Assembly: GCF_015354405.1 (NCBI RefSeq)
Contig: NZ_JADKYP010000004.1
Location: 62,001 to 126,000, forward strand
DNA from: Nocardia sp. BSTN01
GTDB lineage: Bacteria; Actinomycetota; Actinomycetes; Mycobacteriales; Mycobacteriaceae
Direction of reading: 5' to 3'
Length of the DNA stretch: 64,000 bases
Shown piece after piece: positions 8,178 through 41,783 of the stretch. A program made the translations under genes and the position numbers. The first letter of the stretch is position 1; each line of letters starts with the position of its first letter. Under the pieces are notes generated by a model, which saw only the letters and a program-made list of their open reading frames with translations, ran no database searches and was not told where the DNA came from.

Positions 8178-8870
8178 TCAGTCCGGTGCGGCAGCGACCT
8201 CGGAGTCGATCAGCCGATAGCCGACTCCGCGCAGGGTTTCGATGCTGTTGCTGCCGAACGGCGTATCGATCTTCTTGCGCAGATAGCCGATATAGACCTC
8301 GACGACATTCTCCGGGCCGTCGTAGTGCGCATCCCAGACGTTGCGCAGGATCTCGGTTTTGGTGAGGGCGCTGCCCTTGTGCCGCAACAGGAATTCGAGG
8401 AGCCCGAACTCCCTGGGTGTCAAAGCCAATTCGGCACCGGCGCGGGAGGCCGAGCGCCGCCGCGGGTCCAGTCGCAGGTCGCCCGCGGCCAGAATCTCGG
8501 GCTGCTGTGGTGTGCGGCGGCGCAGCAGGGCGCGCAGGCGCGCGGTGAGCACGACGAAGGAGAACGGCTTGGTGAGATAGTCGTCGGCGCCCAGATCCAG
8601 CGCGTCGGCCTGGTCGTAGTCGCCGTCCTTGGCGGTGAGCATCAGCACCGGGGTGGAGATGTCGCGTTCACGCAGCCGGCGCAGCACCTCGTAGCCGCTC
8701 AGTTCGGGCAGCATGATGTCGAGCACGATGACGTCGAAGTCGTCCTCGGTCGCCCACCACAGGCCGTCGGTCCCGGTATGAGCCTGCTGGACGACGAAAC
8801 CCTCCAGCTCCAAGCCGCGCCGCAGGGTCGCGGCGAGCCGGGGCTCGTCCTCGACCACCAGCACACGCAT
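8178..8870 (-). CDS. OmpR-family response regulator
   Basis: A 230-residue regulator with an N-terminal receiver (acidic pocket VVEDE, phospho-acceptor Asp51 in VLDIMLP, Thr and Lys in MLTAKDG and YLTKPFSF) and a C-terminal winged helix (LTPREFGLLEFLLRHKG ... VEVYIGYLRKKI). The start at 8870 (MRVLVVEDE) fits the family; the frame upstream is shadow. It is tail-to-tail with the histidine kinase and followed on the same strand upstream by a lipoprotein gene, so it may belong to a lipoprotein-first operon. Confidence 0.93.
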   Translation of the reverse strand: MRVLVVEDEPRLAATLRRGLELEGFVVQQAHTGTDGLWWATEDDFDVIVLDIMLPELSGYEVLRRLRERDISTPVLMLTAKDGDYDQADALDLGADDYLTKPFSFVVLTARLRALLRRRTPQQPEILAAGDLRLDPRRRSASRAGAELALTPREFGLLEFLLRHKGSALTKTEILRNVWDAHYDGPENVVEVYIGYLRKKIDTPFGSNSIETLRGVGYRLIDSEVAAAPD

Positions 8871-8910
8871 CTCCCCAGCATGCCCGACGCGTATCGGGGC
8901 CTCGGGGGCA

Positions 8911-9525
8911 CTACCACCAGATGCCCGATTCGACGACCCACACGCCGCCGTTGTTCTTGCGGGCGGGCTGGGACAGGTGCAGGGAGACGCGCTGTCCGTT
9001 CGGTCCGGTCGCGACGGCGAGGTAGGCGCCGTCGTGGGCGATCGTCGGCCGCGACCAGCCGAAGCGCCCGGAGACGAAGGCGCGCGCGACGGCATCCTCG
9101 TCCAGCCGCCACGGCTGGTGACCGGCGTCGGCCGACTGCTGCAACTGTTCGGCCGCCTCGCCGCTGATGCCTTCACCGGGGAAGGCGGTGCCCGCCGGTG
9201 GCCGGTCGCCGGCGGGCGGGCTGGACGGAGAGACGACGGGAAGCTGGGCCGTCGGTGCGGCGGGTACTTCGTCGAGTCCGGACGGCGTCGGCTCGGTACC
9301 GCCGGAGCCGTCGTCGGTTTCGCCGGAGGTGTTCGCGGCGGCCGCTTGCGTCATCGACCGGTATCCGACGGTATTCGGTCCTTCCGAGGCCGGTGAGTCG
9401 GTCGAGCAGGCGACGAGGGTGGCGGCGACCGCGACGCCGGTCGCGACGGTGACGATGCGGAGTATGTCCGTGGCCCGGAGCTGCCGGTGGCCGGAGAAAA
9501 GAGGGAGTCGAGTGTGGGAGCGCAT
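8911..9525 (-). CDS. Secreted lipoprotein of unknown function
   Basis: A 204-residue protein with a basic N-terminus, a hydrophobic segment and a lipobox (TLVACS), so it is probably lipid-anchored outside the membrane. A Pro/Ser/Gly-rich linker leads to a compact C-terminal domain (about 130-204) ending in NNGGVWVVESGIWW. The ATG at 9525 has a good AGGAG site at 8 nt; an ATG at 9558 is possible. It lies 40 nt upstream of the response regulator on the same strand and may sense or modulate the same envelope signal. No family was recognised. Confidence 0.72.
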   Translation of the reverse strand: MRSHTRLPLFSGHRQLRATDILRIVTVATGVAVAATLVACSTDSPASEGPNTVGYRSMTQAAAANTSGETDDGSGGTEPTPSGLDEVPAAPTAQLPVVSPSSPPAGDRPPAGTAFPGEGISGEAAEQLQQSADAGHQPWRLDEDAVARAFVSGRFGWSRPTIAHDGAYLAVATGPNGQRVSLHLSQPARKNNGGVWVVESGIWW

Positions 9526-9628
9526 GGGCGGTCTCCTGAATGCGATCGGTGCCGTCATCGTGTGATCCGCGCGCGATCGGTGAGTGTTCGCGGCGGTGCG
9601 GCGGGTCGGCGCGATCGAGACCACTCCG

Positions 9629-10393
9629 TCATCGTGACGGTCGCGGGCGATGGTGATCGCTCACCTGCCGCGACCACGGCGTCAGCCCGCCGCGGATCTC
9701 GGCGGCCGCTGCCCGCACCCGCGGTGCGATCCGCCGCAGCGCCGCCGGACGATCACAGACGACACCCACCGCCGCCGACGCGTCGACGGCCACGGCCACC
9801 GCGGACAGCCCGGACCCGAATTCGTCGTCGTCGTAATCTGTTGCGCGACTGCCTATTCGATGGAGACGTCGATGCAGGGCCGCGAGATCGAATCCGGGCT
9901 CGACATCGGTCACCCGCGCGTCGACATCCTCCGGCGGCAGTTGCGCCAGCGCGACGCGGCCGAGGGTGCTGCGATGGGCCGCCACCCGGGTCCCGACCCG
10001 GGTGGGCACCGCCGTCGCGGCCCGGCCGCCGAGTTTGTCCAGGTAGAGCACCTCCCCGCCGTCCAGCGCCCCGAGATGGACGACGGCGGCGGTAGCCAGC
10101 AGCAATTCGTGCAGTATCGGCGCCGCGCAGGCACGTAGGCGGGACAGTCGCGCGGTGTCGGCGTTCCACGTGCGGACCCGCCGGCCCAGCGCGTAACCGT
10201 CCGCGCCGTGGGTGAGCCACTCCAGTTCGATGAGCTGCCGCACGATCCGATGCACGGTGGCGCGCGGCAGGCGGGTGCGGACGGCGATCTGGCCGAGCGT
10301 CAGATGCCGATCCGGCACCCGGAACAAGTCCATCACCAGGGTGGCGCGCTCGAGCATGGTCAGAGGCAGCTGAACTGCGGCTACCTCGGACAT
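9629..10393 (-). CDS. IclR-family transcriptional regulator
   Basis: A 254-residue protein with an N-terminal winged helix (LTLGQIAVRTRLPRATVHRI) and an effector-binding domain with the IclR signature region LDKLGGRAATAVPTRVGTR...HRSTLGRVALA. Most IclR regulators repress or activate neighbouring catabolic genes. Here neither neighbour is an obvious target, so its regulon may be elsewhere. The C-terminal tail (about 20 residues) is basic and unlike the family. Confidence 0.87.
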   Translation of the reverse strand: MSEVAAVQLPLTMLERATLVMDLFRVPDRHLTLGQIAVRTRLPRATVHRIVRQLIELEWLTHGADGYALGRRVRTWNADTARLSRLRACAAPILHELLLATAAVVHLGALDGGEVLYLDKLGGRAATAVPTRVGTRVAAHRSTLGRVALAQLPPEDVDARVTDVEPGFDLAALHRRLHRIGSRATDYDDDEFGSGLSAVAVAVDASAAVGVVCDRPAALRRIAPRVRAAAAEIRGGLTPWSRQVSDHHRPRPSR

Positions 10394-10456
10394 GTACCGA
10401 TGGTAGGAGTCGCCCGTGGTGCGCGACGGCCAAGTTATCCATTCGGTACGCCGGGC

Positions 10457-11191
10457 TCACCCGCCGGATCCGGACGCCGATCCGGCGCCGAGGCCGTTCG
10501 CGGATCCGCTGGGCAGTTGCAGTTGTGCGTCGGGTGCGCCGGTGCCGTTCGGGTCGAGCATTCCGCCCTGTCCGGCGTAGGAGCTCTGTCCCGGTGGGGC
10601 CTGCAGGACCGTGAGGTAGTTCCACAATCCCGCCGCGAGCGCACCGCCGCCGACCAGCACCGTCCCCGCGACACCGCCCGCGCCGGCGAATGCCAGGACG
10701 GCCGCCGGAATCGTCGCCAGACACCCGGGACCGACCACCAGGCAGGTACTCGCTCCGACCGCGGCGCCGACGAGGGCGCCCAGCACGGTGCCGACGACCG
10801 TCCCGATCACCGGCCCGCGCGACATGGTGGTCGCGAAATCGTTGAGCGCCAACTGGTTCTCCATCGCGGAAGCCGCGGGGCGTCCGGCGATAACCGGTGT
10901 CATCGTGAGGGTTCGCCCGCCGTCGCCGATGCGGGTGTCGATGCGGTGGGCGATGCCGTCCACGGTGAAGCTCGCAGGCAGCGTCGCGACGGGAGTGCCG
11001 CCCACGGTCACGCGGACGGAACCGTCGGCACCCGCGCTGAATGCACCGGTGGCGAAGCCGCTGAGAACGATTGCCCCCGAGACGGTTTCGATACTCGGCG
11101 CGGGCGGCTCGGCGGTCGCGGTGGCGACGGTGACGGACGCGGTCAGGGCAGCGGTGGCCGCGGTCAGCGCGGCGATCGTACGGTGGGACAT
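10457..11191 (-). CDS. Secreted glycine-zipper protein (Nocardia-type, DUF8020-like)
   Basis: A 244-residue protein with a cleavable signal peptide (about 1-27, ending ATAEPP). A beta-rich N-terminal part follows, then a long Gly/Ala helix pair (GTVVGTVLGALVGAAVGAST ... AGAGGVAGTVLVGG) resembling glycine zippers that insert into membranes. The tail is Gly/Ser/Asn-rich. It is paralogous to the next gene (the same order: beta part, ENQLALNDF motif, glycine zipper, YLTVL-APPG). The DUF8020 name is from memory and needs checking. The ribosome site GGGAGG is good. Confidence 0.75.
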   Translation of the reverse strand: MSHRTIAALTAATAALTASVTVATATAEPPAPSIETVSGAIVLSGFATGAFSAGADGSVRVTVGGTPVATLPASFTVDGIAHRIDTRIGDGGRTLTMTPVIAGRPAASAMENQLALNDFATTMSRGPVIGTVVGTVLGALVGAAVGASTCLVVGPGCLATIPAAVLAFAGAGGVAGTVLVGGGALAAGLWNYLTVLQAPPGQSSYAGQGGMLDPNGTGAPDAQLQLPSGSANGLGAGSASGSGG

Positions 11192-11206
11192 CGTCGCCTC
11201 CCGCGC

Positions 11207-11908
11207 TCAGCGACCGGTGTCCGGCACGCCGGGCCGGCCACGCAGATCGGGGGCGTATTCGCTGGTTCCCGGCGGTGCCAGCAGCGTCGTGACATAGCGG
11301 TAGAGCCCCACGGCGGTGGTGGGACCGCCGCCCAGCACCAGGCCCGCGACACCGCCCGCGGCCCCCGCGAGGCTGACGATCGGCAGCACCGCGACCACGC
11401 AGGCGACGCTCAGCACCGCGCACGAGGCGCCCGCGAGCGCGATGCCGAGCCCGACGCCGAGGACCGCGCCCACCGCCGTGCCGATCAACGCGCCGACGGA
11501 CGTGCCGATACTGACCGCGTTGACCAGGTCGTTCATCGCGAGCTGGTTCTCCAGTGGGGAGGCGGCCGGGGTCAGGGCAGCGCGGCGCAGGCCCGCGGTG
11601 TCCGGTGTCAGCGTGAGGGTCGTCGCATCCGCGCCGATCTGCTCGCGGATCGGCATGCGCTGGTCGCCGATCGCGTACGCCAGCGGCAGGGCATCGAGCA
11701 CGCGTCCCGCCTCGTCCCGGACGGTGACCGTAGTGCCGGCGGGGTCGACGGCGAAGGTGCCGTGCGTCAATTCGACTGTCACCGAACCGCTGTCGGTGGT
11801 TTCGGCGTGGTAGGTGACGACGGCCGGGACCGGATCGGCCGCTGCCGTCCCCGCCGCGGCCAGTGTTGCGGCGCAGACTGCCGCGATCGTCGAGATCCGA
11901 ATCTTCAT
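11207..11908 (-). CDS. Secreted glycine-zipper protein, paralogue of the neighbour
   Basis: A 233-residue protein with a signal peptide (about 1-24, AAAGTAAADP). It shares with the adjacent paralogue the segments DALPLAYAIGDQRMPIREQI, SPLENQLAMNDL and a glycine-zipper region (GALIGTAVGAVLGVGLG), then RYVTTLLAPPGTSEYAP. The ATG at 11908 is preceded by GAGGGGG and begins with a classic signal peptide; the longer frame upstream is not supported. Both genes probably form one transcript and may form an envelope complex. A third paralogue sits at 21792 and a broken fourth at 54588. Confidence 0.75.
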   Translation of the reverse strand: MKIRISTIAAVCAATLAAAGTAAADPVPAVVTYHAETTDSGSVTVELTHGTFAVDPAGTTVTVRDEAGRVLDALPLAYAIGDQRMPIREQIGADATTLTLTPDTAGLRRAALTPAASPLENQLAMNDLVNAVSIGTSVGALIGTAVGAVLGVGLGIALAGASCAVLSVACVVAVLPIVSLAGAAGGVAGLVLGGGPTTAVGLYRYVTTLLAPPGTSEYAPDLRGRPGVPDTGR

Positions 11909-12039
11909 GGGGCGCCCCCTCGTCTCGATCCACCGGGCGCTCGGGACGCCCGGCCCCGGTTCGGGTGCGGTGTCGCACGCGACGTGCGGGGAGCCGGACC
12001 GTAGCGCGGCGGATTCGGAAGCGTCCGAAGGCGTCTCGC

Positions 12040-12885
12040 TCAGCGAGACAGATGTTCCTTCGTCGCCGGGAGTCCGGCCAGGAAGGTGGTGATCGCCGAG
12101 GTCACGGTCTCCGGATCCTCGACCATCGGCAGATGTCCGCAATCACTGAGGACGAGACGCTCACGTGGACACAATGTTTCGTCGAGCCGAGCGCCGGCGG
12201 CCGCCGACAGGATCCGATTGCGCCGGCCCCAGACGGTGCATATCGGCGGAAACTCGGGACCCGGAGTGAATTCGTCGAGCGCGGCGAAGGCGGGGAAGTC
12301 CTGCACCAGCCGGTCGAGGGCGAGCAGTCGGCCGCGATCGCTCCAATACGCCTGCAGGCGTGGGTCTTTCTGTAATTCCCGGTCCCGCCCGCGCGGGCCC
12401 AGTTGATGGGCGACGATCAGTGCGACGAGCGCCTTCGGCAGCGCGAGCCGCCGGGCCAACGGCGCGAGCGGCGCGAACCGGTCGAACCACATCAGCGGCG
12501 CCTGATCGCCGTGCCGCACGGTATTCCAGGTGAGCGGGTTGATCAGCACCAATCCGCGCACCCGTGCCGGATCGCCGATCGCGAAACCCAGCGACGTCGC
12601 GCTGCCCAGGCAATTTCCGACCAGCACCACCCGGTGCAGCCGGTGCTCGTCGAGAAAGGCCCGAAGCATCGCCACATAGTCGGCGAGCCGATATCCCTGC
12701 GGCTGTTCCGATTCCCCGTATCCGGGCAGATCCACTGCGAATACCTCGTAACGGCCCCGCAACGACGCCACCTGGTCGTCCCAGATCCGCCGCTGGGCGC
12801 CCGCATTGTGGATGAAGACGATCGGATCGCCGTGGCCCGCGTGGTCGTACACCACGCGCCGCCCTCGATATACGAATTCCGCCAC
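12040..12885 (-). CDS. Alpha/beta hydrolase with a Cys nucleophile
   Basis: A 281-residue alpha/beta hydrolase fold protein: oxyanion region FIHNAGAQ, DLPGYGESEQP, nucleophile elbow VGNCLGSA and final His251 (DCGHLPMVEDPE). The nucleophile position is Cys92 (codon TGC) rather than Ser, and the usual acidic residue after strand 7 is Asn223 (WGRRNRIL). A Cys nucleophile occurs in dienelactone hydrolases, but an Asn at the acid site suggests altered or lost hydrolase activity. Its substrate is unknown. Confidence 0.85.
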   Translation of the reverse strand: MAEFVYRGRRVVYDHAGHGDPIVFIHNAGAQRRIWDDQVASLRGRYEVFAVDLPGYGESEQPQGYRLADYVAMLRAFLDEHRLHRVVLVGNCLGSATSLGFAIGDPARVRGLVLINPLTWNTVRHGDQAPLMWFDRFAPLAPLARRLALPKALVALIVAHQLGPRGRDRELQKDPRLQAYWSDRGRLLALDRLVQDFPAFAALDEFTPGPEFPPICTVWGRRNRILSAAAGARLDETLCPRERLVLSDCGHLPMVEDPETVTSAITTFLAGLPATKEHLSR

Positions 12886-12955
12886 GACTCCTCACATCTA
12901 CGAACATCAGTGTTCGTAAGTGGGTACGGTACCGCACCCGCGCAGACCTCGCTGC

Positions 12956-13303
12956 TCAGCGGGCCAATTGCAATGCCAGCGTCGCCGCGGCCGGAATCAG
13001 ATACAGGCCCGGGAAGATCGTGGTCCCGTAGGAATGGGCACGCACGGTGGTCGCCATCGCGCCGAGGAAATACAGAATCAATCCCACGGCCGCGGCCACT
13101 CCGACCGCTGGGACGAAGAAGCCCGCCACCAGCCCCAGCGCCCCGGCGGATTTGGCGAGGGCGAGCCAATTCCACCAGCTTCGCGGCACGCCGTACTGGT
13201 TCAGCGGTTCCACGACGAATTCGCTCTTGTTGAACAGTGAATAGCCGGAGAATCCGATCCACAGGGCCGCTGCGGTGCCGACGATGTAATACGCGATGTT
13301 CAT
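12956..13303 (-). CDS. DoxX-like membrane protein
   Basis: A 115-residue protein with four predicted transmembrane helices (about 4-22, 46-66, 71-88, 96-112) and the family features AALWIGFSGYSLFNKSEFVV and LALAKSAGALGLVAGF. DoxX-like proteins are small four-helix membrane proteins, some linked to oxidative stress or quinone/thiosulfate metabolism; function here is unknown. The ATG at 13303 begins the first helix. Confidence 0.8.
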   Translation of the reverse strand: MNIAYYIVGTAAALWIGFSGYSLFNKSEFVVEPLNQYGVPRSWWNWLALAKSAGALGLVAGFFVPAVGVAAAVGLILYFLGAMATTVRAHSYGTTIFPGLYLIPAAATLALQLAR

Positions 13304-13361
13304 ACCGGTGTGACGACGTGGCGGGCCGCAGTGTGACACGGCGCCGCGGGCGATGGTCCGA

Positions 13362-13781
13362 TCAGCGTCGCTGCAAGGTGATGCCCGCGATCGAATACGG
13401 GGCGTCGATCGAGGTCGCGGCGGCATTCACAGTGCCTTCCCAATAACCCTGCGGTGCGTCGACGGCATGCAGATCCCAACCCGTCGGCATCCCCTCGAAC
13501 GTCACGTAGGTCTCATCGGGGCCGGCCGCGTTCTGGCGGCCGGTCTTCGAGGAATTCCCGCACACCAGCGTCACGGTCGCGCCGTCCACGAAGACCTGCA
13601 GGTCGCAGTTGTGCACGGGCGAGCCGATCATATTGTCGGGGTGCTGGGTGATGTGGTACGTCCCGGCCGGAAGGATCCCGTTGCGGGGAACTGCGGGGTC
13701 GTCGGCGGAGGCGGCGGCCGGCACCGCGGAAAAGGTGGCGGCGGCGAGTGCGGCTCCGGCCGCGGCGCGTCGAGCATTCAT
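13362..13781 (-). CDS. Small secreted protein of unknown function
   Basis: A 139-residue protein with a signal peptide (cleavage near AAASADDP, residue 27) and a mature domain of about 112 residues with two cysteines (HNCDLQVFVDG and LVCGNSSK), likely a disulfide-linked beta-sandwich. Motifs ILPAGTYHITQHPDN and TYVTFEGMPTGWDL are notable. I do not recognise the family. Confidence 0.68.
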   Translation of the reverse strand: MNARRAAAGAALAAATFSAVPAAASADDPAVPRNGILPAGTYHITQHPDNMIGSPVHNCDLQVFVDGATVTLVCGNSSKTGRQNAAGPDETYVTFEGMPTGWDLHAVDAPQGYWEGTVNAAATSIDAPYSIAGITLQRR

Positions 13782-14150
13782 GGTCCGGCTCCATCGGTCG
13801 ATCCATCGAAATCAGCCGGATGCCGGAGTCGTCTGGGCACCCGGGTCGCTCTGGTGGGAGGATTCCCCGCTCCCGCAAACGAAACCAGCGACACCGACAT
13901 CGGCGCGGTGGCGCCGCATGCGACTGGTGATCATCGTGCGGACGAACTACCGCTGTCCCGAGATATCAAGTTTCAGGTCTCGGTGAGGTAAGAATTTGCG
14001 CCTGTCCGGGCCTACCGTTGAAGGCATCACCCGGTGCCGGACTCGGCGGTGAGCCAACCGCCGCAGCGGATGCACCGAGACAGTGCGGACCGCAGATCGC
14101 GAGCCCTCGCGGCGTCGATGCGCCGGTCCTGTCGGAAGAGGAGATGTCCT

Positions 14151-15143
14151 GTGCCACAAGCCTTTCGTTACTACGAGACCGGAGCGCCCGAGGTGCTGCG
14201 GTGGGAGAGCGTGGAAGTCGGCGATCCGGGGCCGAACGAGGTGCGGATTCGCCACCGAGCGGTGGGCCTGAACTTCGCCGACACCTATTTCCGTACCGGG
14301 CTGTACCCGGCGCCCCTGCCCGCCGGGATGGGCGTGGAGGGTGCGGGTGTGATCGAGGCGGTGGGCCCGGGTGTCACCGACTTCGCCGCGGGTGACCGGG
14401 TGACCTATACGGGCGGTCCGCTGGGGGCCTACAGCACGGAGCGCGTGATGCCGGCCGAACATCTGATCGCGCTTCCGGACCGGATCGGCTTCGACACCGC
14501 GGCGGCGATGACCATGCGCGGTCTGACGGCGGCGTATCTGCTGCGCCGGATCTACCCGCTGCGTCCCGGCGATACGGTGCTGTTGCACGCCGCCGCGGGC
14601 GGGGTCGGGCTGATCTTCACGCAATGGGCAAAGCTGCTGGGCGTCACCGTGATCGGCACCGTCTCCTCCGACCGGAAGGCCGAGATCGCGCGGGCCCACG
14701 GCTGCGATCACGTCATCGTGTACACCCGGGAGAACGTCGCGCAGCGCGTGCGCGAACTCACCGACGGCGCCGGTGCCCGCGTGGTCTACGACAGCATCGG
14801 CAAGACGACCTTCGAATCCTCGCTGGATGCGCTGATGCGGCGCGGGATGCTGGTGTGTTTCGGCACGGCCTCGGGTCCGGTGCCGCCGATCGACGCCATG
14901 ACACTGGCCGCCAAGGGTTCGCTGTTCGTCACCCGGCCGGCACTGGCCGATTACATCAACGACGCGGCCGAACGCGCCGAACTGGCCGGGGAGCTGTTCG
15001 CCCACGTCGCCGCGGGCCGCATTCGCATCGACATCAATCAACGCTACGAGCTCGCGGACGCCGTGGCCGCACACCGCCATCTGGAACAGGGCACGAGCAT
15101 CGGTTCGTCGGTCTTCACCGTGGGCCGGGAAGGACAGTCATGA
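14151..15143 (+). CDS. Zinc-free quinone oxidoreductase (MDR superfamily)
   Basis: A 330-residue NADPH-dependent reductase. The N-terminal GroES-like domain contains GLNFADTYFRTGLYPAPLP and MGVEGAGVIEAVG; the Rossmann domain has VLLHAAAGGVGLIFTQWAKL. The catalytic-zinc ligands of alcohol dehydrogenases are absent, as in QOR enzymes. The GTG start at 14151 has a GAGGAG site. It overlaps the dioxygenase gene by 4 nt and is first in the catabolic cluster, where it may reduce an enone or quinone intermediate. Confidence 0.9.
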   Translation: MPQAFRYYETGAPEVLRWESVEVGDPGPNEVRIRHRAVGLNFADTYFRTGLYPAPLPAGMGVEGAGVIEAVGPGVTDFAAGDRVTYTGGPLGAYSTERVMPAEHLIALPDRIGFDTAAAMTMRGLTAAYLLRRIYPLRPGDTVLLHAAAGGVGLIFTQWAKLLGVTVIGTVSSDRKAEIARAHGCDHVIVYTRENVAQRVRELTDGAGARVVYDSIGKTTFESSLDALMRRGMLVCFGTASGPVPPIDAMTLAAKGSLFVTRPALADYINDAAERAELAGELFAHVAAGRIRIDINQRYELADAVAAHRHLEQGTSIGSSVFTVGREGQS

Positions 15144-34170: not shown

Positions 34171-35133
34171 TCAGCTGAGGCCGGTCACTTCCTGGGCGAT
34201 CGCGGCGAGCCGGGTCTGGGCGGCCGACACGACGCCGTGGCGCTTCTTGTGGGCTTCCTCGTAGGCGACGATCGCGCGGATGTCGGCCGGCTCGGTGAGG
34301 TCCTTCACCGCGGCGACGGCCTGGGACACGTTCAGCTCGTCGTAGTCGCCGACCGGCAACTCGCCGGGTTCGAGGACACCGGTGGTCGCGCGGATCGAAT
34401 GCAGGGCGTCGGCGGCCGCGGCGGCGCCTTCGTGGCGCGTGACCTGTTCGGCGCTCTCCAACGCGGCATCCCGGGAGGCCGACAGCGTCTTGACCGCGAC
34501 ATCACCCGCGTGTGCGCCTCGGGCGAGCAGCTCACCGAGCGCGGGCGGGGTGGTGCGGACGGTGTCCAGCGCACGGTCCAGGCCGCGAGCCGACCAGGTG
34601 ACGGGCAGGTTGAACAATTTCACCGCGGTGCCGGTCGCCGCCTGCAGCACGGTGCGGCGCAAGGCGGCCGGCCCGCCGAGGGCGTCCTCGGCCAGGACGG
34701 TGGTCAGCCATTCCACCGTGGCCGAATGCGCGGTGATCAAGCGGTCGGCCAGCGTCACGATCTCCCGCTGCCCCGCGGCGGTCGCGAGGGCCTTGATGTA
34801 GCGGGAGCGGTCGAGCAACTGGTGCTCCAGAGCCAGATCGCCGAGCAGGGCCTCGTCGAACGGCTGGGCCTGTTCGGCCATCGCCTTGATGGCGGCGACC
34901 GCGCGGCCGAGGAACGGGCCGACCACCTCGGGCACACTGCCCAGATCGCGGATGGCGGCCTCGATCGCCTCGGCGCGGGCACGGCCCTTGTCGGCGTTCT
35001 CCGACAGTTCCTTGCGGACGGCCTCGGTCCGCGCCTGCGCGATCCGGGTCTCGGCCACTTGTATCTCGGTATTGGTCAACGTCAGCAGTGCTCGTAGCTG
35101 GGCCAGCAGGGTGGACGTATCAAGAGTGCTCAT
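34171..35133 (-). CDS. Ferritin-like four-helix protein, conserved hypothetical
   Basis: A 320-residue, nearly all-helical, Ala-rich protein. The middle (about 80-160) resembles a ferritin-like bundle (EALLGDLALEHQLLDRSRYI and LADRLITAHSATVEWLTTVL, with Glu/His pairs that could bind a di-metal centre). No signal peptide or membrane segment. Such actinobacterial proteins are annotated ferritin-like with no known role. It is on the same strand as the methyltransferase-NRPS operon but is separated from it by about 160 nt. Confidence 0.72.
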   Translation of the reverse strand: MSTLDTSTLLAQLRALLTLTNTEIQVAETRIAQARTEAVRKELSENADKGRARAEAIEAAIRDLGSVPEVVGPFLGRAVAAIKAMAEQAQPFDEALLGDLALEHQLLDRSRYIKALATAAGQREIVTLADRLITAHSATVEWLTTVLAEDALGGPAALRRTVLQAATGTAVKLFNLPVTWSARGLDRALDTVRTTPPALGELLARGAHAGDVAVKTLSASRDAALESAEQVTRHEGAAAAADALHSIRATTGVLEPGELPVGDYDELNVSQAVAAVKDLTEPADIRAIVAYEEAHKKRHGVVSAAQTRLAAIAQEVTGLS

Positions 35134-35290: not shown

Positions 35291-36199
35291 TCAGCCGAGG
35301 TAGGTCGACTCGAGCACGAGGTCCTTGAGAACCTTCTGGTATTCGGCGTGCGTCCGGTGCTCGCGGGTTGTCCACCGGGTGCCCTCCTGGCGACGCATGA
35401 ACGCTCGATACTCCGGTGCCCCCGGATATTTCACGTTGTCCGCCACGACGACCGCACCGGGGCGCAGCCAGGCCCGGTCCAGGATCCGGTGGAGATCGGG
35501 AAGATATTCGTCCTTCTCGTGGTCGAGGAAGGCGAAATCCAATGCACCGGGGGAGAACTCGTGTTCGTCGCCCAATGTTCGGAGCGTCTTCCCGTCGTCG
35601 CCCAATGTGCCGACGATGACGACGATGCGGTCGCCGACGCCCGCGTGATCCCAGATCCGCTGGGCCACAGCGGCATTGGCCGCGTTGAACTCGATCGAGT
35701 ACAGCACGGCATCGGCCGGCATGACCCGCGCCATGCGCAATGCGCTGTAGCCGCAATAGGTTCCGAGTTCGAGCAGGCGGCGCGGTTGCGCGGCGGCGAC
35801 GGCCCGGTCGAGGATGCGACCCTTCTCGTCACCGATGTTGATCAGGTAGCTCTTGGTGTAGCAGAACTCGTCGATCGCCCGGATGACGTCGTCGATGTCG
35901 TTCTGTCGCGCATGCGCGCACACATAGTCGGCCAGCGCCTGTTCGCGCCCGTCACCGACCTGCCAGGTGGCGCCCATATGCCGGAGGCCGAACAGAAACC
36001 GCACATACGACCAGCGCAGGAACATCACCGGTTTGCCCACGGTCTCGTTGGCGGCAATCGCCAGGGCGATCGCGGCGACGGCGGCCAGCGCCGCGCGCGG
36101 GAGACGGAGACCGAACACCGCCGGCCGTCGCGCGGCCAGCATGATCGAGGACGCAGCCGACACCGCGGATGCCACGATCGCAGCGGAATGCTTGCTCAC
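35291..36199 (-). CDS. SAM-dependent O-methyltransferase (COMT-like) with N-terminal membrane anchor
   Basis: A 302-residue methyltransferase. An Ala/Val-rich segment (about 34-52, AALAAVAAIALAIAANE) probably anchors it. The SAM-binding motif is LLELGTYCGYSALRMARVM, then YSIEFNAANAAVAQ, and the metal-catechol region LDFAFLDHEKDEYLPDL and VVADNVKYPGAP. This is the class of Mg-dependent catechol-type O-methyltransferases. Its GTG overlaps the NRPS stop (GTGA). In this operon it would methylate a phenolic hydroxyl made by the hydroxylase. Confidence 0.88.
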   Translation of the reverse strand: MSKHSAAIVASAVSAASSIMLAARRPAVFGLRLPRAALAAVAAIALAIAANETVGKPVMFLRWSYVRFLFGLRHMGATWQVGDGREQALADYVCAHARQNDIDDVIRAIDEFCYTKSYLINIGDEKGRILDRAVAAAQPRRLLELGTYCGYSALRMARVMPADAVLYSIEFNAANAAVAQRIWDHAGVGDRIVVIVGTLGDDGKTLRTLGDEHEFSPGALDFAFLDHEKDEYLPDLHRILDRAWLRPGAVVVADNVKYPGAPEYRAFMRRQEGTRWTTREHRTHAEYQKVLKDLVLESTYLG

Positions 36200-39100
36200 A
36201 TGCTCTTCCCTTCGCCGTGCCGATTCAGTTCGGCCTCCAGGATCGGCCCGATGACCGCGAGCGCCTCGGGGTTGGTCATCTGCGCGTGGGTGACGTCGAC
36301 CCGGTGCTCCGCGATCCGGCCGGAAACCCAGGGCCGCCACATCTCACCGGTCAGTTCGCCGGTGATGCCCTCGGTCGCTGAGAAGTACAGCAGATCGCCG
36401 TCATAGGATGCCGGCCGGTAGCTCGTCGACATGGCGACGCTGTCGACATAGCCCTGGTGCAGGCGTTCGAGCTGCTCGCGGGTCAGCCCGCGCCCGGGGC
36501 CGGGGCTGTCGGCGAGCACGTCCACCGCTTCGTCCAGCGTGAGCGGCCGCGTGTCGGGAGTGGCGGACTCGTTGCCCTGCAAGTGGGTGACCAGATCACG
36601 GACGGTGGGCGGTTCCGGCTGCGGCGCCCCCTCACCGAAGGCCACGCTGTCGAGCATGACGAGCAATCCCACGTCGTGCCCCCGGGCGCGCAGCCGGGCG
36701 GCGAGCGCGTGCGCGAGTTGGCCGCCCAGCGACCAGCCCAGCAGGTGGTACGGCCCTTCCGGTTGCACCCGCGTGAGTTCCCGCAGATACACCTCGGCGA
36801 GCTCGTCGACGCTGTTGTATCGCCGCGATTGCCCGGAGACGGCCGGCGACTGCAGCCCGTAGACGGGCCGGTCGGTGACGTAGCGCAGCAGGCCCGAATA
36901 GCACCACGCCAGCGGAACCGCGGAATGCAGGCATATCAGCGGCGTCCCGGAACCGCTGTCCCGCAACGGAAGAACCGGCTGCAACGCCGAACCGCCGACT
37001 GCCGCATCGCTGTTCCCGCCGGCTGCGGTGGCTTCGATGGCGGCGGCCAAGGTTTGCACCGTCGGGGTGAACAGCGACGAGATCGTCACCGTGGTCCCGG
37101 TCCGCTCCGACAGTTGCCGGCACAGTTCGACGCCCAGCAACGAATTGCCGCCGAGTTCGAAGAAATTGTCGTCCAAGCCGATTCGAGACTGTCCGGTCAC
37201 CTCGGCGATCGTCTCCGCCACCGTGCGCTCGATCTCCGAGGCCGGCGCGCGGAACACCGGGCGCGGCTGCGTCTGCGGATCCGGCAACGCGGATCGATCG
37301 GTTTTGCCGCTGCTCGGATTGATCGGTATCTCGGGCAGCGGAACCAGCATCGCCGGAACCATGCCGGGCGGCAGGACGGTCCGCAACCGCGCCAAGACAG
37401 CGGCCCGGTCGAAATCGTCCTTCGCCTCCGAGGTCGGCACGACATAGCCGATCAGCCGATCGCCGAGTGTCTCCGACGTCCACACCCGCACCACGGCCTG
37501 ATCGACCGTCGCGTCGGCGGCCAGGGCGCGTTCCACCTCGGACGGCTCGATGCGCTGTCCGCGCAGCGAGATCTGAACATCGCCTCGGCCGAGGTACTCC
37601 AGCGTGCCGTCGGGTTGCTCGCGGACCATGTCGCCGGTGCGATACATCCGGGTTCCCCACTGCCCGTACGGATTTGCCACGAAACTCTGCGCGGTGATTC
37701 CGGGCCGCCCCAGATATCCGCGCGCCAACGCGTCACCGGCGAGATACAGTTCGCCGCGGGCGCCACGGGGAGCCGGCCGCAGCCGGGCGTCCAGGACGAG
37801 AGTCTGCACGCCGGGCAGCCCGCGCCCGATCGTGATCGGCGAGCCGGGGGCGAGCGGTTCGGTCTGGGTCACCACGACGGTGGCTTCGGTGGGCCCGTAG
37901 GAGTTGAACATCGGTAACCGGCCCGCCCAGCGTTCGGCCAGTACGGGCGGACACTTGTCACCGCCGACGGTGACGGTCCGCAGCGCGGGCAGTCGATCCG
38001 GGTCGAGCGTGGCCAGGATGGCCGGCGTGACGATCAGCTGCGTGACGGCCGCGTCTTCCATCACCTGCGACAGCCGTTGTCCCGCAACGATGTCCGGTGC
38101 CAGGGCGATCAGCTTCGCGCCGGGGGCGAACGCGGAGAGATATTCGAGCATCGACGCGTCGCAGAATGGCGAATGTGCTTGCAGCACCACGGCATCGCGG
38201 CCGATGCCGTTACGGGTGCGCAGATCGTCGGCCAGGGCCGCCAGTCCTTCGTGGGTACTCAGCACCCCCTTGGGTTCGCCGGTGGATCCGGAGGTGTAGA
38301 TCAGATAGGCCGGGTGCGCGGCCCGCAACGGTCGTATTCGGTCGGCGTCGGTCACCGCTGCGGCGGACCGGGAGGCGGCGGCGCGGGTGAACTCGTCGCT
38401 GTCGAGCAGCAACCAGTCGACCGTCGTGGTTTCCAGGGGTGTGCGCCATCTGGTGAGGGTGATGCCCAGCGTCGCACCGGAATCGGCGATCAGCTTCGCG
38501 ACGCGGGCCGGCGGGTCGGTGGGATTGACCGGGAAGAACACCGCGCCCGCCCGGGCGACCGCCCACAACGCCATGACCGATTCCACCGACCGCGACAATG
38601 CCACCGCGACAACGACTTCCGGCCCGGCGCCGTGCGCGATCAGTTCACGCGCCCACCGGGCGGTCGTCTCGTCGAGTTCGCGATAGGTCACCGCGCGATC
38701 CGGCCCGCTCAGCGCGATCCGGGCACCGGCATCGATTCCGCCCGCGAGCAGGTCCGGCAGCAATCGCTGGTGGTGCCGCTGCTGCGGGGCGGCGATCGTG
38801 TGTGTACCGGCGACGGCCGCGAACACCGTGTCGGCGCCGTCGGCCCGCAGGAATCGGGTCAGGCAGTCGACGAACTGCTGCCGATACCCCTCCACTTCGT
38901 CTGCTCGGTACAGCTCCGGGTTGGCATGAAAGTCGATGACGAACGGCTCGGTGCCGAACCGGTAGCAACTGATCGCCAAATCCTCCACCGGCCCGGCCGA
39001 AAGCAATTGCGTCCGACCGCGAACGGCGCCGAAGTCGATGCTGTCGGGCAGGCTGAGGACGTTGATCAGCGGCCCGTAGCCGTGCCGGCCGGCCTGCCCC

Positions 39101-40146
39101 ACGCCGTGGTCGCGGACCAGGTCTTCGTGCCGGTACAACTGATGGCGCAACGCGCCGATCATGCTCAGGCGTACCTCGCGAACCAGCTCACCGACCGTGC
39201 TCTCGGCCACGCCGCGCACCCGCAGGGGCACCACGTTCGAGACCATTCCCGCCGACTGCCGCAGGGCTCCGGTGGTGCGCCCGGCGACGGGCAGCGACAC
39301 CGTGACATCGGTATCACCCGTCATCTGCGCCAGAAACGCGGCCACCGCCGCGACCAGCACCTCGGCCATCCCGGTGCCATACCGGTGGGCCGCGTCGCCG
39401 AGCCGTGCCATGACCTCCGCGTCAACGGTCGTGTGCGCGATATGCGGCCGGGCCGAGGGTGCGGCGTACCGCTCGCTGAGGCGGGTCACATGGTCGAGGC
39501 CGGCGAGCTGCCGTCCCCAGTACTCGCGATCGGCGGCGAACCGAGGCGAGGACCGATACCGCTGCTCGGCCGCCACGATCTCGGCCAGCGATACCGCCCG
39601 GCACGCCGCCGCGGGCCGCCCTCCGGTTGCGGCGGAATGCAATTCGGCCGTTCGCTGCAACACCTGAGCGGCGCCGAAGCCGTCGACGGCGATGTGGTGG
39701 CTGCGCGCGTAGCAGCGATACCGGCCGGGACCGAGGGTGAACAGCACCGTCTTCGTGACGTCGTCTCCGGTCAGATCGATGCCCGCGTGATGATCCCGGC
39801 TCATCCACTCCTGGGCGGCGCGTTCGGGATCGGGGTGATCACTGAGATCTATGCAGTCGAATCCGGTGTCCACATCGTGGTCGAGATATTGGCGCGGCCG
39901 CCCACCGACGATGGCGAATCGCACATGGGGTGACTGTAATTCGCGTGCGGCGCGGCGGGCGCACCGCTGGAGTAGTTCCAGGTCGAGATCGCCGTGCACA
40001 TCGGTGTATTGCGAGATGGAGAACGGAACCGTGGGATGTAATTGCTGAGCCAGCCACAGTTCGTACTGCGCCACCGACAATTCGAAGAAGTCCGCGTCCG
40101 GAGTCGCGTCGTCGTGACGACGCGTGGAACTCGAAAGGTCTACCAC
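36196..40146 (-). CDS. Single-module NRPS (C-A-T-TE)
   Basis: A 1316-residue synthetase. Condensation domain about 20-440 with HHIAVDG (His150, His151, Asp155, Gly156). Adenylation domain about 465-945 with YTSGSTGEPKGV, a binding-pocket start CDASMLEYL, YGPTEATVVVT and YRTGD. Thiolation domain with Ser1002 in LGGNSLLG. Thioesterase with GWSLGG (Ser1139) and a His near 1287. By alignment with GrsA the pocket reads approximately D-A-L-I-T-G-S-V-V-K, which would suit a bulky, possibly aromatic residue; this is inference. It overlaps the hydroxylase gene by 7 nt and the methyltransferase gene by 4 nt. Confidence 0.93.
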   Translation of the reverse strand: MVDLSSSTRRHDDATPDADFFELSVAQYELWLAQQLHPTVPFSISQYTDVHGDLDLELLQRCARRAARELQSPHVRFAIVGGRPRQYLDHDVDTGFDCIDLSDHPDPERAAQEWMSRDHHAGIDLTGDDVTKTVLFTLGPGRYRCYARSHHIAVDGFGAAQVLQRTAELHSAATGGRPAAACRAVSLAEIVAAEQRYRSSPRFAADREYWGRQLAGLDHVTRLSERYAAPSARPHIAHTTVDAEVMARLGDAAHRYGTGMAEVLVAAVAAFLAQMTGDTDVTVSLPVAGRTTGALRQSAGMVSNVVPLRVRGVAESTVGELVREVRLSMIGALRHQLYRHEDLVRDHGVGQAGRHGYGPLINVLSLPDSIDFGAVRGRTQLLSAGPVEDLAISCYRFGTEPFVIDFHANPELYRADEVEGYRQQFVDCLTRFLRADGADTVFAAVAGTHTIAAPQQRHHQRLLPDLLAGGIDAGARIALSGPDRAVTYRELDETTARWARELIAHGAGPEVVVAVALSRSVESVMALWAVARAGAVFFPVNPTDPPARVAKLIADSGATLGITLTRWRTPLETTTVDWLLLDSDEFTRAAASRSAAAVTDADRIRPLRAAHPAYLIYTSGSTGEPKGVLSTHEGLAALADDLRTRNGIGRDAVVLQAHSPFCDASMLEYLSAFAPGAKLIALAPDIVAGQRLSQVMEDAAVTQLIVTPAILATLDPDRLPALRTVTVGGDKCPPVLAERWAGRLPMFNSYGPTEATVVVTQTEPLAPGSPITIGRGLPGVQTLVLDARLRPAPRGARGELYLAGDALARGYLGRPGITAQSFVANPYGQWGTRMYRTGDMVREQPDGTLEYLGRGDVQISLRGQRIEPSEVERALAADATVDQAVVRVWTSETLGDRLIGYVVPTSEAKDDFDRAAVLARLRTVLPPGMVPAMLVPLPEIPINPSSGKTDRSALPDPQTQPRPVFRAPASEIERTVAETIAEVTGQSRIGLDDNFFELGGNSLLGVELCRQLSERTGTTVTISSLFTPTVQTLAAAIEATAAGGNSDAAVGGSALQPVLPLRDSGSGTPLICLHSAVPLAWCYSGLLRYVTDRPVYGLQSPAVSGQSRRYNSVDELAEVYLRELTRVQPEGPYHLLGWSLGGQLAHALAARLRARGHDVGLLVMLDSVAFGEGAPQPEPPTVRDLVTHLQGNESATPDTRPLTLDEAVDVLADSPGPGRGLTREQLERLHQGYVDSVAMSTSYRPASYDGDLLYFSATEGITGELTGEMWRPWVSGRIAEHRVDVTHAQMTNPEALAVIGPILEAELNRHGEGKSM

Positions 40147-40904
40147 CGCAATTCCTTACGGAGAAAGGTCGTTACCTCCGCCATCATCCGGCCGACCGAA
40201 TCGGCGACGAAGAGGAGAGGTTGACAAATGCTGTCGTCGATATCGGCGGCGAGTATGTCCTGCACCCGGAACTCTCGCAGATCCGCGTTCACGAAGGACT
40301 CCATCTCGGTCACCGAGGACAGGATCGCGGCTCCGTATGCTCTCGGGTGACCCTTTTCGGCGACCACGCCGACCTCCAGGGTGAACCAGAACAACCGCGC
40401 GATCGCGGCCCGCTGCTCGTCGGAGGTGGCACGGTTGGCGGCGCGGCCGATGCAGCGATACAGCTCCGCGAATTCCGGATCGGCCAGTATCACCGCATGT
40501 CCGACCAGTTCGTGGATGACGTCCGGATCGGGCGAGAACGATTGCTCGGTCACCGGCCGCACGTCCGGAGTGGCGTGCAGAATGCCGTCGGCCATCGGGC
40601 CGTAGAACAGGCGGCCCGGTTGGCTTCCGATGGCCGGCGCCAACTCGAAACCGGTCAGCGAACGAAGCATGCCCGACACCTCGCTCATCTGCGGTACCCG
40701 CCCGGCGGGCAGCCGAACGAGGCGAGCCGCGGAGCGATAGTCCGCGCACGCGAGCTGTTCGTGCATGGCCTGAAGCGTCGCGAAAACGCGGGACCACAAC
40801 GCGTCTTCATCTCTGCTGTAGACGAATTCGGGCAGAGGCTGCCCCGGGCGGCACGCGCGGGCGACCCGCTCACGCTCGGACCGAACGTCGAGACCAACCG
40901 TCAT
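40140..40904 (-). CDS. Aromatic amino acid hydroxylase (phenylalanine hydroxylase-like)
   Basis: A 254-residue pterin-dependent iron hydroxylase. The metal triad is visible as His131 and His136 in DVIHELVGH and Glu177 in WFTLEVGVV. Bacterial members hydroxylate phenylalanine at C4 or, in some secondary-metabolite clusters (PacX type), at C3. Being the first gene of an operon with an NRPS and an O-methyltransferase favours a biosynthetic role. The ATG at 40904 was chosen; a TTG at 40913 is possible. GAGGAGAGG lies upstream. Confidence 0.9.
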   Translation of the reverse strand: MTVGLDVRSERERVARACRPGQPLPEFVYSRDEDALWSRVFATLQAMHEQLACADYRSAARLVRLPAGRVPQMSEVSGMLRSLTGFELAPAIGSQPGRLFYGPMADGILHATPDVRPVTEQSFSPDPDVIHELVGHAVILADPEFAELYRCIGRAANRATSDEQRAAIARLFWFTLEVGVVAEKGHPRAYGAAILSSVTEMESFVNADLREFRVQDILAADIDDSICQPLLFVADSVGRMMAEVTTFLRKELRW

Positions 40905-41783
40905 CGCAATCAATCCTCTCCTCGAGTTGCCTAAGTTGCGCAGGTCATCACCACTCGGAATCGATCGGCGCTGACAATAGGTGCGTTCTGTGTGCGCGAG
41001 TACCCCGGCCGATTTTCAGCAAACAAATCGGCAAAGCCGGCGAGGATAAAGTAGAAGGCGATTTCTCGCAATACATTCGGCGGAATTTCAGATGACAATT
41101 CGGTGCTGGCCGAGGGTGCTCGCGTGGGCAGGTTCGGCATCGGCCTCTCCGTTCTTCTCAGGCGAACAACGGTAATCAGTCAAGCTACTACAGGCCCGGG
41201 AGCAATCCGGGGAACCCGGCCGTGCGGGGTGGCCGTCAGCATCGGCGCCGGCAACGAGGGGGGATCCGCGAGGTCCGCATGCGCCGTCATCGTTCGGGCG
41301 GCCGGCGGTCGTGCTCGTATCGCCCGCATCGCGAGGTCGGCCTCGGCGGTGTCCCGGCGGCTCGGCAGCCGCTGTGCGATGTCGTACCGGCAACCCTGCG
41401 TCGGCGCTCTTGCCTCGCCTCGACGTCCCATTGGCATGTGGGGATTGTCGGGGCGAATGCCGCGTGCGGTAACCACCCGAACGCTGAAGATCGGTGCGCG
41501 TCGATATATTCTCAGGTCGAGGCTTGTATTCGGGGGAATTGCAGGAGCGGTCGAATCGGCGGTCCGGCCGGTACGTGGCACGGAAATGAGAAACTGTATT
41601 GAAAGAATCTTGCCGGAATTAACTTTCCAGACTGAATAATTAATTGCGGATAATGATATTTTCTTCCCGATTGGATTGCGCAATTTCGGCCATGGAAAGA
41701 TGAGAAGAGGCTATATTTTAGAAACTCGGTGTTGCGGTCCGGTATTCGGTCGTAACGTTGCTCTACATTTTCTGGAGTCAGTC
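40905..41783. other. Long intergenic region with no supported gene
   Basis: About 880 bases separate the NRPS operon from the divergent secreted protein gene. Open frames exist on both strands at 41103-41683, but they overlap one another, lack ribosome sites and encode low-information Arg/Ala-rich or mixed sequences. The parts at 40960-41100 and 41590-41770 are AT-rich and probably hold promoters for the two divergent operons. Confidence 0.5.

Follow-up and report, generated by a model that had tools for sequence, protein, structure and literature searches.

A conserved three-gene operon of Nocardia encoding an aromatic amino acid hydroxylase, a one-module nonribosomal peptide synthetase and a COMT-like methyltransferase

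Within a 64,000-nucleotide stretch of the Nocardia sp. BSTN01 genome (contig NZ_JADKYP010000004.1, positions 62,001 to 126,000; hereafter the window), we analyzed an operon, present in one group of Nocardia, of three minus-strand genes, free of internal stops, that encode in order (i) a pterin-dependent aromatic amino acid hydroxylase (AAAH); (ii) a nonribosomal peptide synthetase (NRPS) of a single module; and (iii) a methyltransferase (MT) resembling catechol O-methyltransferase (COMT). The evidence supports the view that hydroxylase, module and methyltransferase form one small conserved unit outside any larger shared cluster. From the genes present, their conservation and selection, the types of domain and the residues named below, we infer all substrates, the sequence of reactions and the product, and propose, with slightly less than even confidence, a three-enzyme pathway that would lead to an N-acylated, ring-methoxylated tyrosine. 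The product would be a lipid-like amino acid so far undescribed.

Gene content and conservation of the operon

An earlier note, made from the letters of the window alone, had named a hydroxylase, a C-A-T-TE NRPS (condensation, adenylation, carrier and thioesterase domains) and a COMT-type methyltransferase, and all three identifications are confirmed by Pfam and by motifs. The AAAH gene (40140..40904, stop included) encodes 254 amino acids that match Biopterin_H (E=6.1e-48); its ATG at 40904 is preceded by GAGGAGAGG, and the alignment shows this start to be kept across relatives. In the 1316-residue NRPS (36196..40146), the Condensation, AMP-binding, PP-binding and Thioesterase models all score above their Pfam cut-offs, while AMP-binding_C falls narrowly under (24.2 versus 24.5 bits). 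The longest open reading frame of the MT gene has 349 codons, but we prefer the GTG at 36199, because this is the start that is conserved in relatives; the resulting protein of 302 residues (35291..36199) matches Methyltransf_3 (E=3.3e-20), and its top solved relative is a catechol O-methyltransferase (7.6e-45).

The genes had also been described as overlapping end to end. This holds for the window, where AAAH and NRPS share 7 nucleotides (nt) and NRPS and MT share 4 nt, but relatives do not share the first overlap: the AAAH/NRPS junction is about 69 nt longer in five aligned relatives, and 10 of the 11 named relatives carry a gap of 61–64 nt (seven values printed directly, three derived from printed positions), the exception being N. 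alni with about 9 nt. As relatives carry 61–64 nt there, we read the 7-nt overlap as recent.

The host genome comprises 7.8 Mb in 206 contigs, and its closest named relatives, judged by this locus, belong to Nocardia. AAAH orthologs of at least 79% identity were found in 13 of 151 Nocardia genomes, including its own, and none of 40 genomes from other genera of the order had an AAAH match. The best other AAAH match in a class-wide sample of 296 genomes reached 50%, and a plasmid search returned 45 records, every one below 60% identity, with a best value of 37% among the matches listed. A search of named relatives, which detects close relatives only, found AAAH, NRPS and MT together in all 11 matches (N. 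cerradoensis, N. aobensis, N. kruczakiae, N. elegans, N. africana, two of N. nova, N. alni, N. veterana, N. anaemiae and N. mikamii), and in each of these the MT frame and its catalytic motifs are intact. Median dN/dS was 0.156 for AAAH (12 sequences, 66 pairs), 0.169 for NRPS (12 sequences, 65 of 66 pairs) and 0.153 for MT (28 pairs among eight of the 12 sequences, the start motif having missed the other four). The idea of a broken locus is set aside, since the three frames are kept in 11 of 11 relatives at a dN/dS of about 0.16.

Genomic context argues for an independent unit. At four loci (L021–L024) the operon is flanked by the same neighbor genes as in the window. At a fifth (L025, identical in sequence to the N. 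anaemiae locus L046), the part in common with the window is confined to 35291–41083; the flanking sequence open to comparison amounted to about 3.9 kb on the upstream side and 9 kb on the downstream side. On this ground we set aside the idea that the operon is a piece of a larger cluster, and the reading as a small unit is supported. The suggestion that its product might be undescribed is likewise upheld, in that a literature search covering titles and abstract openings, Nocardia products included, found no description of this operon.

Hydroxylase and methyltransferase residues

The iron site of the AAAH (the 2-His-1-Glu set His131, His136 and Glu177) is invariant in 33 sequences, as expected of a pterin-dependent AAAH. 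The enzyme is about 40% identical to the housekeeping phenylalanine hydroxylase (PAH), which the same genome encodes separately and which has the standard F/G/I residues at the three sites considered below; the single pterin carbinolamine dehydratase gene of the genome is located elsewhere than the operon.

Three residues set the operon AAAH apart. Val178 (40371..40373) and Ala193 (40326..40328) lie at the Phe and the Gly that we take to be human PAH positions 331 and 346, and that are Cys and Thr, respectively, in phenylalanine 3-hydroxylase. Asp224 (40233..40235) aligns with an Asp of human tyrosine hydroxylase (TH; QPYQDQTYQS). The corresponding residue is Val in rat PAH and Ile in the housekeeping PAHs of Nocardia. 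We take the site to be position 425 of rat TH and 379 of PAH, at which Asp presumably favors Tyr over Phe. The residue table covered 61 loci (L077 was dropped, its pattern being unmatched, and the Asp site of 14 rows was identified by visual inspection, the pattern having returned nothing there). Val, Ala and Asp occur together in 18 of 18 operon-AAAH rows, repeat species included, while none of 41 other AAAH rows has the Asp, 40 being F/G and one, L074, Y/S; L069, an AAAH of another gene cluster, reads V/A/I.

The five AAAHs located in biosynthetic clusters (those of the operon, L154, L098, L101 and L159) all have Val or Thr plus Ala, and the Asp is confined to the operon and L154. These two form one clade with a support of 0.987, L098 joining next at 0.948. 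The L154 enzyme, from another Nocardia (genome G407), is 48% identical to the operon AAAH, carries the Asp at the same position (INDKTCQS, compared with DQTYQS in human TH), and adjoins a Methyltransf_3 O-methyltransferase and a multi-module NRPS. This pairing, although a single case, makes it less likely that the link of an Asp-bearing AAAH with a catechol-type methyltransferase is due to chance.

The L154 cluster (8637-14919, on contig C12) also holds a Methyltransf_2 O-methyltransferase, a protein like HPPD or hydroxymandelate synthase, and an FMN-dependent dehydrogenase like hydroxymandelate oxidase, and the adenylation codes read there include DAFFTGAVC and DAYFWGAVF. L101 (9633-10376) and L159 (5968-6696) are distant NRPS-linked AAAHs in a clade of their own (0.999); one of them lies on Streptomyces tendae plasmid NZ_CP043960.1 and is annotated as hypothetical. 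The V/A-type AAAH of L098 (5691-17559, genome G291) sits beside a thioesterase, a 2OG-Fe dioxygenase, a LysX-like ATP-grasp protein and an AMP-binding protein, in a cluster that is possibly undescribed.

Key residues of the characterized phenylalanine 3-hydroxylase are C187 and T202; its C187A variant gave 100% meta product and T202A 67% meta and 33% para (PMC7027792). Since small residues at these sites retain meta product in that enzyme, we conclude that the operon AAAH, which has Val and Ala in place of the Cys/Thr pair, probably hydroxylates at the meta (3-) position. The Asp makes tyrosine somewhat likelier than phenylalanine as the substrate, which would give DOPA. Of the 3- or 4-hydroxyphenylalanine that had been envisaged for this enzyme, the 3-position is thus retained, whereas the 4-position and phenylalanine are less favored, the residues pointing to conversion of Tyr to DOPA. 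The curated TH model TIGR01269, which describes the animal enzyme, gives the AAAH 152 bits against a cut-off of 654.65; the protein may act like TH yet is not filed as a member of that family.

The MT aligns with human COMT across most of its length. The motifs FLDHxK (FLDHEK in the window), ADNV and HRTHAEY, which in the alignment cover the Mg ligands (Asp, Asp and Asn) and the catalytic Lys and Glu of COMT, are kept in 11 of 11 relatives. These motifs support the earlier suggestion of a methyltransferase of the catechol/phenol type that could cap a phenol, and we consider it fairly likely that the MT methylates a catechol. Within its N-terminal 55 residues, positions 5-23 and 36-54 are hydrophobic (36038..36187; hydropathy 1.76 and 1.86, compared with at most 0.95 after residue 80), and these two stretches may form a membrane hairpin. 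We compared seven homologs from other Nocardia loci, of which five have a full N-terminus and two (L108 and L109) are given by match boundaries. The extension is absent from all five full-length proteins, and at the six non-operon COMT-like loci inspected, where a plain gene caller supplied the neighboring genes, no AAAH or NRPS match was found. Because these homologs are without both the extension and such neighbors, it seems that a COMT-like gene present genus-wide was recruited into the operon and acquired an anchor there.

The one-module synthetase

The condensation domain (38848..40092; Pfam 1.4e-45) carries the motif HHIAVDGFGAA, and its HHxxxDG core is intact in 10 of 11 relatives. Among solved domains it matches ObiF1 best (3.8e-59), followed by the RzmA starter domain (1.1e-57) and CDA-C1 (2e-54), whereas EntF scores far lower (1.6e-32). 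In a tree of 48 condensation domains (three of them repeats, and including three of five operon orthologs, since the extraction motif failed on two), the operon domain groups at a support of 0.995 with five of the six first-position domains of the genome's own large NRPSs. The larger clades in which this group is nested add the solved starters (0.845) and the sixth first-position domain (0.999). We consider the domain very probably of the starter type, so that an acyl-CoA would be the expected donor and a second NRPS or dimerization would be unneeded. The earlier note had held that a lone module needs a partner: a free acyl donor remains expected, while a free amino partner or self-condensation is set aside in light of the starter-type domain. 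The host genome is very rich in NRPSs, with 93 matches to the Condensation model (contigs C139, C140, C127 and C1 among the carriers).

The residues at RzmA positions 136, 138, 143 and 148 are Ala, Ser, Val and Ala. Position 148 is Leu in ObiF1 and Phe in EntF, the two aryl-accepting domains. In RzmA, making the residues at these four positions small shifted the acyl chain from C2 to C12–C16 acyl-CoA (PMC7804268). Hence the condensation-domain residues lean toward an acyl donor.

The adenylation domain (37312..38724; Pfam 8.9e-69) has the code D-A-L-I-T-G-S-V-V-K, read by eye from its motifs and identical to the one first written down for it. Code position 278 is Val in seven of 11 relatives and Ile in four; the stretch holding positions 299 and 301 was not matched by the pattern in two of the 11 (L045 and L046). 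The carrier domain (37036..37224, FFELGGNS) and the type I thioesterase domain (36271..36942, GWSLGG) have intact motifs. The best NCBIfam matches of the NRPS, MxcG (568 of 2300 bits) and EntF (545.7 of 2400 bits), remain below their equivalog cut-offs.

Proposed pathway and alternatives

In the proposed pathway, the AAAH would use tetrahydropterin and Fe(II) to hydroxylate L-tyrosine at C3, giving L-DOPA; the adenylation domain would activate the hydroxylated aromatic amino acid and load it onto the carrier domain; the starter-type condensation domain would N-acylate it from a medium- or long-chain acyl-CoA; the thioesterase would free the product, either hydrolytically or by passing it to an acceptor; and the membrane-held COMT-like enzyme would methylate the catechol of the lipidated product.

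Individual parts of this scheme have described counterparts. Animal TH has the specificity Asp in common with the operon AAAH, but has Phe and Gly rather than Val and Ala, and the operon enzyme, unlike TH, consists of the catalytic domain only and is encoded in an NRPS operon. Membrane-bound COMT shares the catalytic motifs of the MT and has a membrane anchor to which that of the MT can be likened. Pyreudione synthetase is reportedly a one-module NRPS that couples a single amino acid to a fatty acyl group, yielding a cyclized alkaloid, with no hydroxylase or methyltransferase gene. Unlike the pathway proposed for the operon, it uses L-Pro (PMC7242659). The pacidamycin phenylalanine 3-hydroxylase is a pterin-dependent AAAH that serves an NRPS and has these two active-site positions changed as well, although to Cys/Thr rather than to Val/Ala with the TH-position Asp (PMC7027792). 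LmbB2-type bacterial tyrosine hydroxylases form DOPA for a natural product, which would be the product of the operon AAAH too, but are heme proteins of an unrelated family (PMC3851162). Of the arrangements described, that of FrsA and FrsH in the FR900359 pathway comes nearest. In it, a lone Cstarter-A-T-TE module is paired with a hydroxylase of its own and uses acyl-CoA to N-acylate an amino acid that carries a hydroxyl, as proposed for the operon. As described, however, FrsH is a diiron β-hydroxylase acting on carrier-bound Leu, and FrsA has an MbtH partner, belongs to a large cluster and uses its thioesterase to transfer the product to a core, whereas the operon has a pterin-dependent AAAH, a COMT-like enzyme and no core gene (PMC7794379).

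Several observations weigh against the proposed pathway. The rule that Asp confers tyrosine specificity stems from animal enzymes, and at the two sites that are Val and Ala in the operon AAAH, TH itself has Phe and Gly. The code DALITGSVVK, which we take to be tyrosine-like, has no printed match that we found in the literature and, as read, does not tell DOPA, Tyr and m-Tyr apart. Where COMT has what we take to be Trp143, the MT has Glu. The condensation-domain tree places both ObiF1 and EntF within the group of solved starters, with inner supports of 0.40–0.76; because these are low, the tree does not choose between acyl- and aryl-accepting starters, and Ala at position 148 is also found in an internal domain (L062). 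In N. anaemiae (L046), HHIAVDA replaces HHxxxDG, which may weaken that copy. The operon contains neither an acyl-CoA ligase nor an MbtH gene, the MbtH genes of this organism lying elsewhere in the genome. Finally, Val at the Phe position was not among the phenylalanine 3-hydroxylase variants considered here, and Tyr was a very poor substrate (<1%) of that enzyme (PMC7027792).

The Val and Ala at the two sites that are Cys and Thr in known phenylalanine 3-hydroxylases, and the recurrence of Val or Thr plus Ala in all five cluster AAAHs examined, would also suit a hydroxylase of Phe itself, in which case the module would N-acylate m-Tyr and the MT would methylate the 3-hydroxyl or another substrate. 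We regard this as unlikely: the operon AAAH does not have the marker Cys/Thr pair, a COMT-type active site expects a catechol, and the TH-position Asp is absent from the other cluster AAAHs L098, L101 and L159 and from 10 PAH-like rows. Even less probable is that the AAAH is an ordinary PAH paralog supplying Tyr to the module. It belongs to the same family, and its best NCBIfam match is phenylalanine 4-monooxygenase (206.7 bits, cut-off 247), but the genome already has a PAH with F/G/I, Tyr is made by primary metabolism, and in all 18 of its rows the operon AAAH departs from these residues at each of the three sites; this reading we consider very improbable.

Two further alternatives concern the fate of the acylated amino acid and the nature of the acyl group. 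As in FR900359 biosynthesis, the thioesterase might move the N-acyl amino acid as a side chain onto a hydroxyl of another molecule. The domain order and the hydroxylase partner are the same as for FrsA (PMC7794379), and the 93 Condensation-model matches show that many other NRPSs are at hand; nevertheless the operon travels alone, and since N. anaemiae shares no neighboring gene with the window, the acceptor would have to come from elsewhere, which leaves this a rather improbable alternative. An EntF-like siderophore module, joining an aryl acid (e.g., salicyl supplied by the aryl-activating enzyme of this genome) to a catechol amino acid, might be suggested by MxcG and EntF as best NCBIfam matches, by ObiF1 as best solved condensation domain, and by a single AMP ligase of the salicylate/DHB type that lies together with a chorismate-binding enzyme at contig C181. 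The scores are, however, far under the equivalog cut-offs, position 148 is Ala, a methyltransferase would spoil a catechol chelator, and the operon has no aryl-acid gene (DHB genes were sought in five stretches rather than genome-wide, again with the plain gene caller), so that we hold this to be highly unlikely.

Two elements adjoin the operon. The conserved leader 5' of the AAAH gene (40905..41060, minus strand) is as conserved as coding DNA, with a mean column identity of 90% across 12 sequences, and in most copies contains a five-codon ATG...TAG frame directly before the ribosome-binding site; a riboswitch was considered and set aside, as no Rfam match was obtained up to E=1. The product of the downstream neighbor (34174-35133) weakly resembles a lipid-droplet protein (NF033649, 20.9 bits, cut-off 110), and a protein with a similar start adjoins a COMT-like gene in another genome (G022; L104, 9326-10441).

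More speculatively than the pathway itself, we suggest that Nocardia may have acquired a pterin-dependent tyrosine 3-hydroxylase independently of animals, the Asp having been gained on the branch leading to the operon and L154 enzymes, and linked it, by way of a lipo-synthetase of one module, with a COMT bound to the membrane; the system would then be a bacterial counterpart of the TH-COMT pair that makes N-acyl-3-O-methyl-DOPA lipids. If the proposed pathway is correct, three genes would suffice to convert Tyr and acyl-CoA into a methoxylated lipo-amino acid, and the pathway should therefore be easy to rebuild and test. To our knowledge, and as far as the literature was searched, a pterin-dependent tyrosine 3-hydroxylase would be unusual in a bacterial natural-product pathway, the known bacterial tyrosine hydroxylases encountered here being heme proteins (PMC3851162), and its Val, Ala and Asp residues would offer a direct handle on how AAAHs choose their substrate and ring position.

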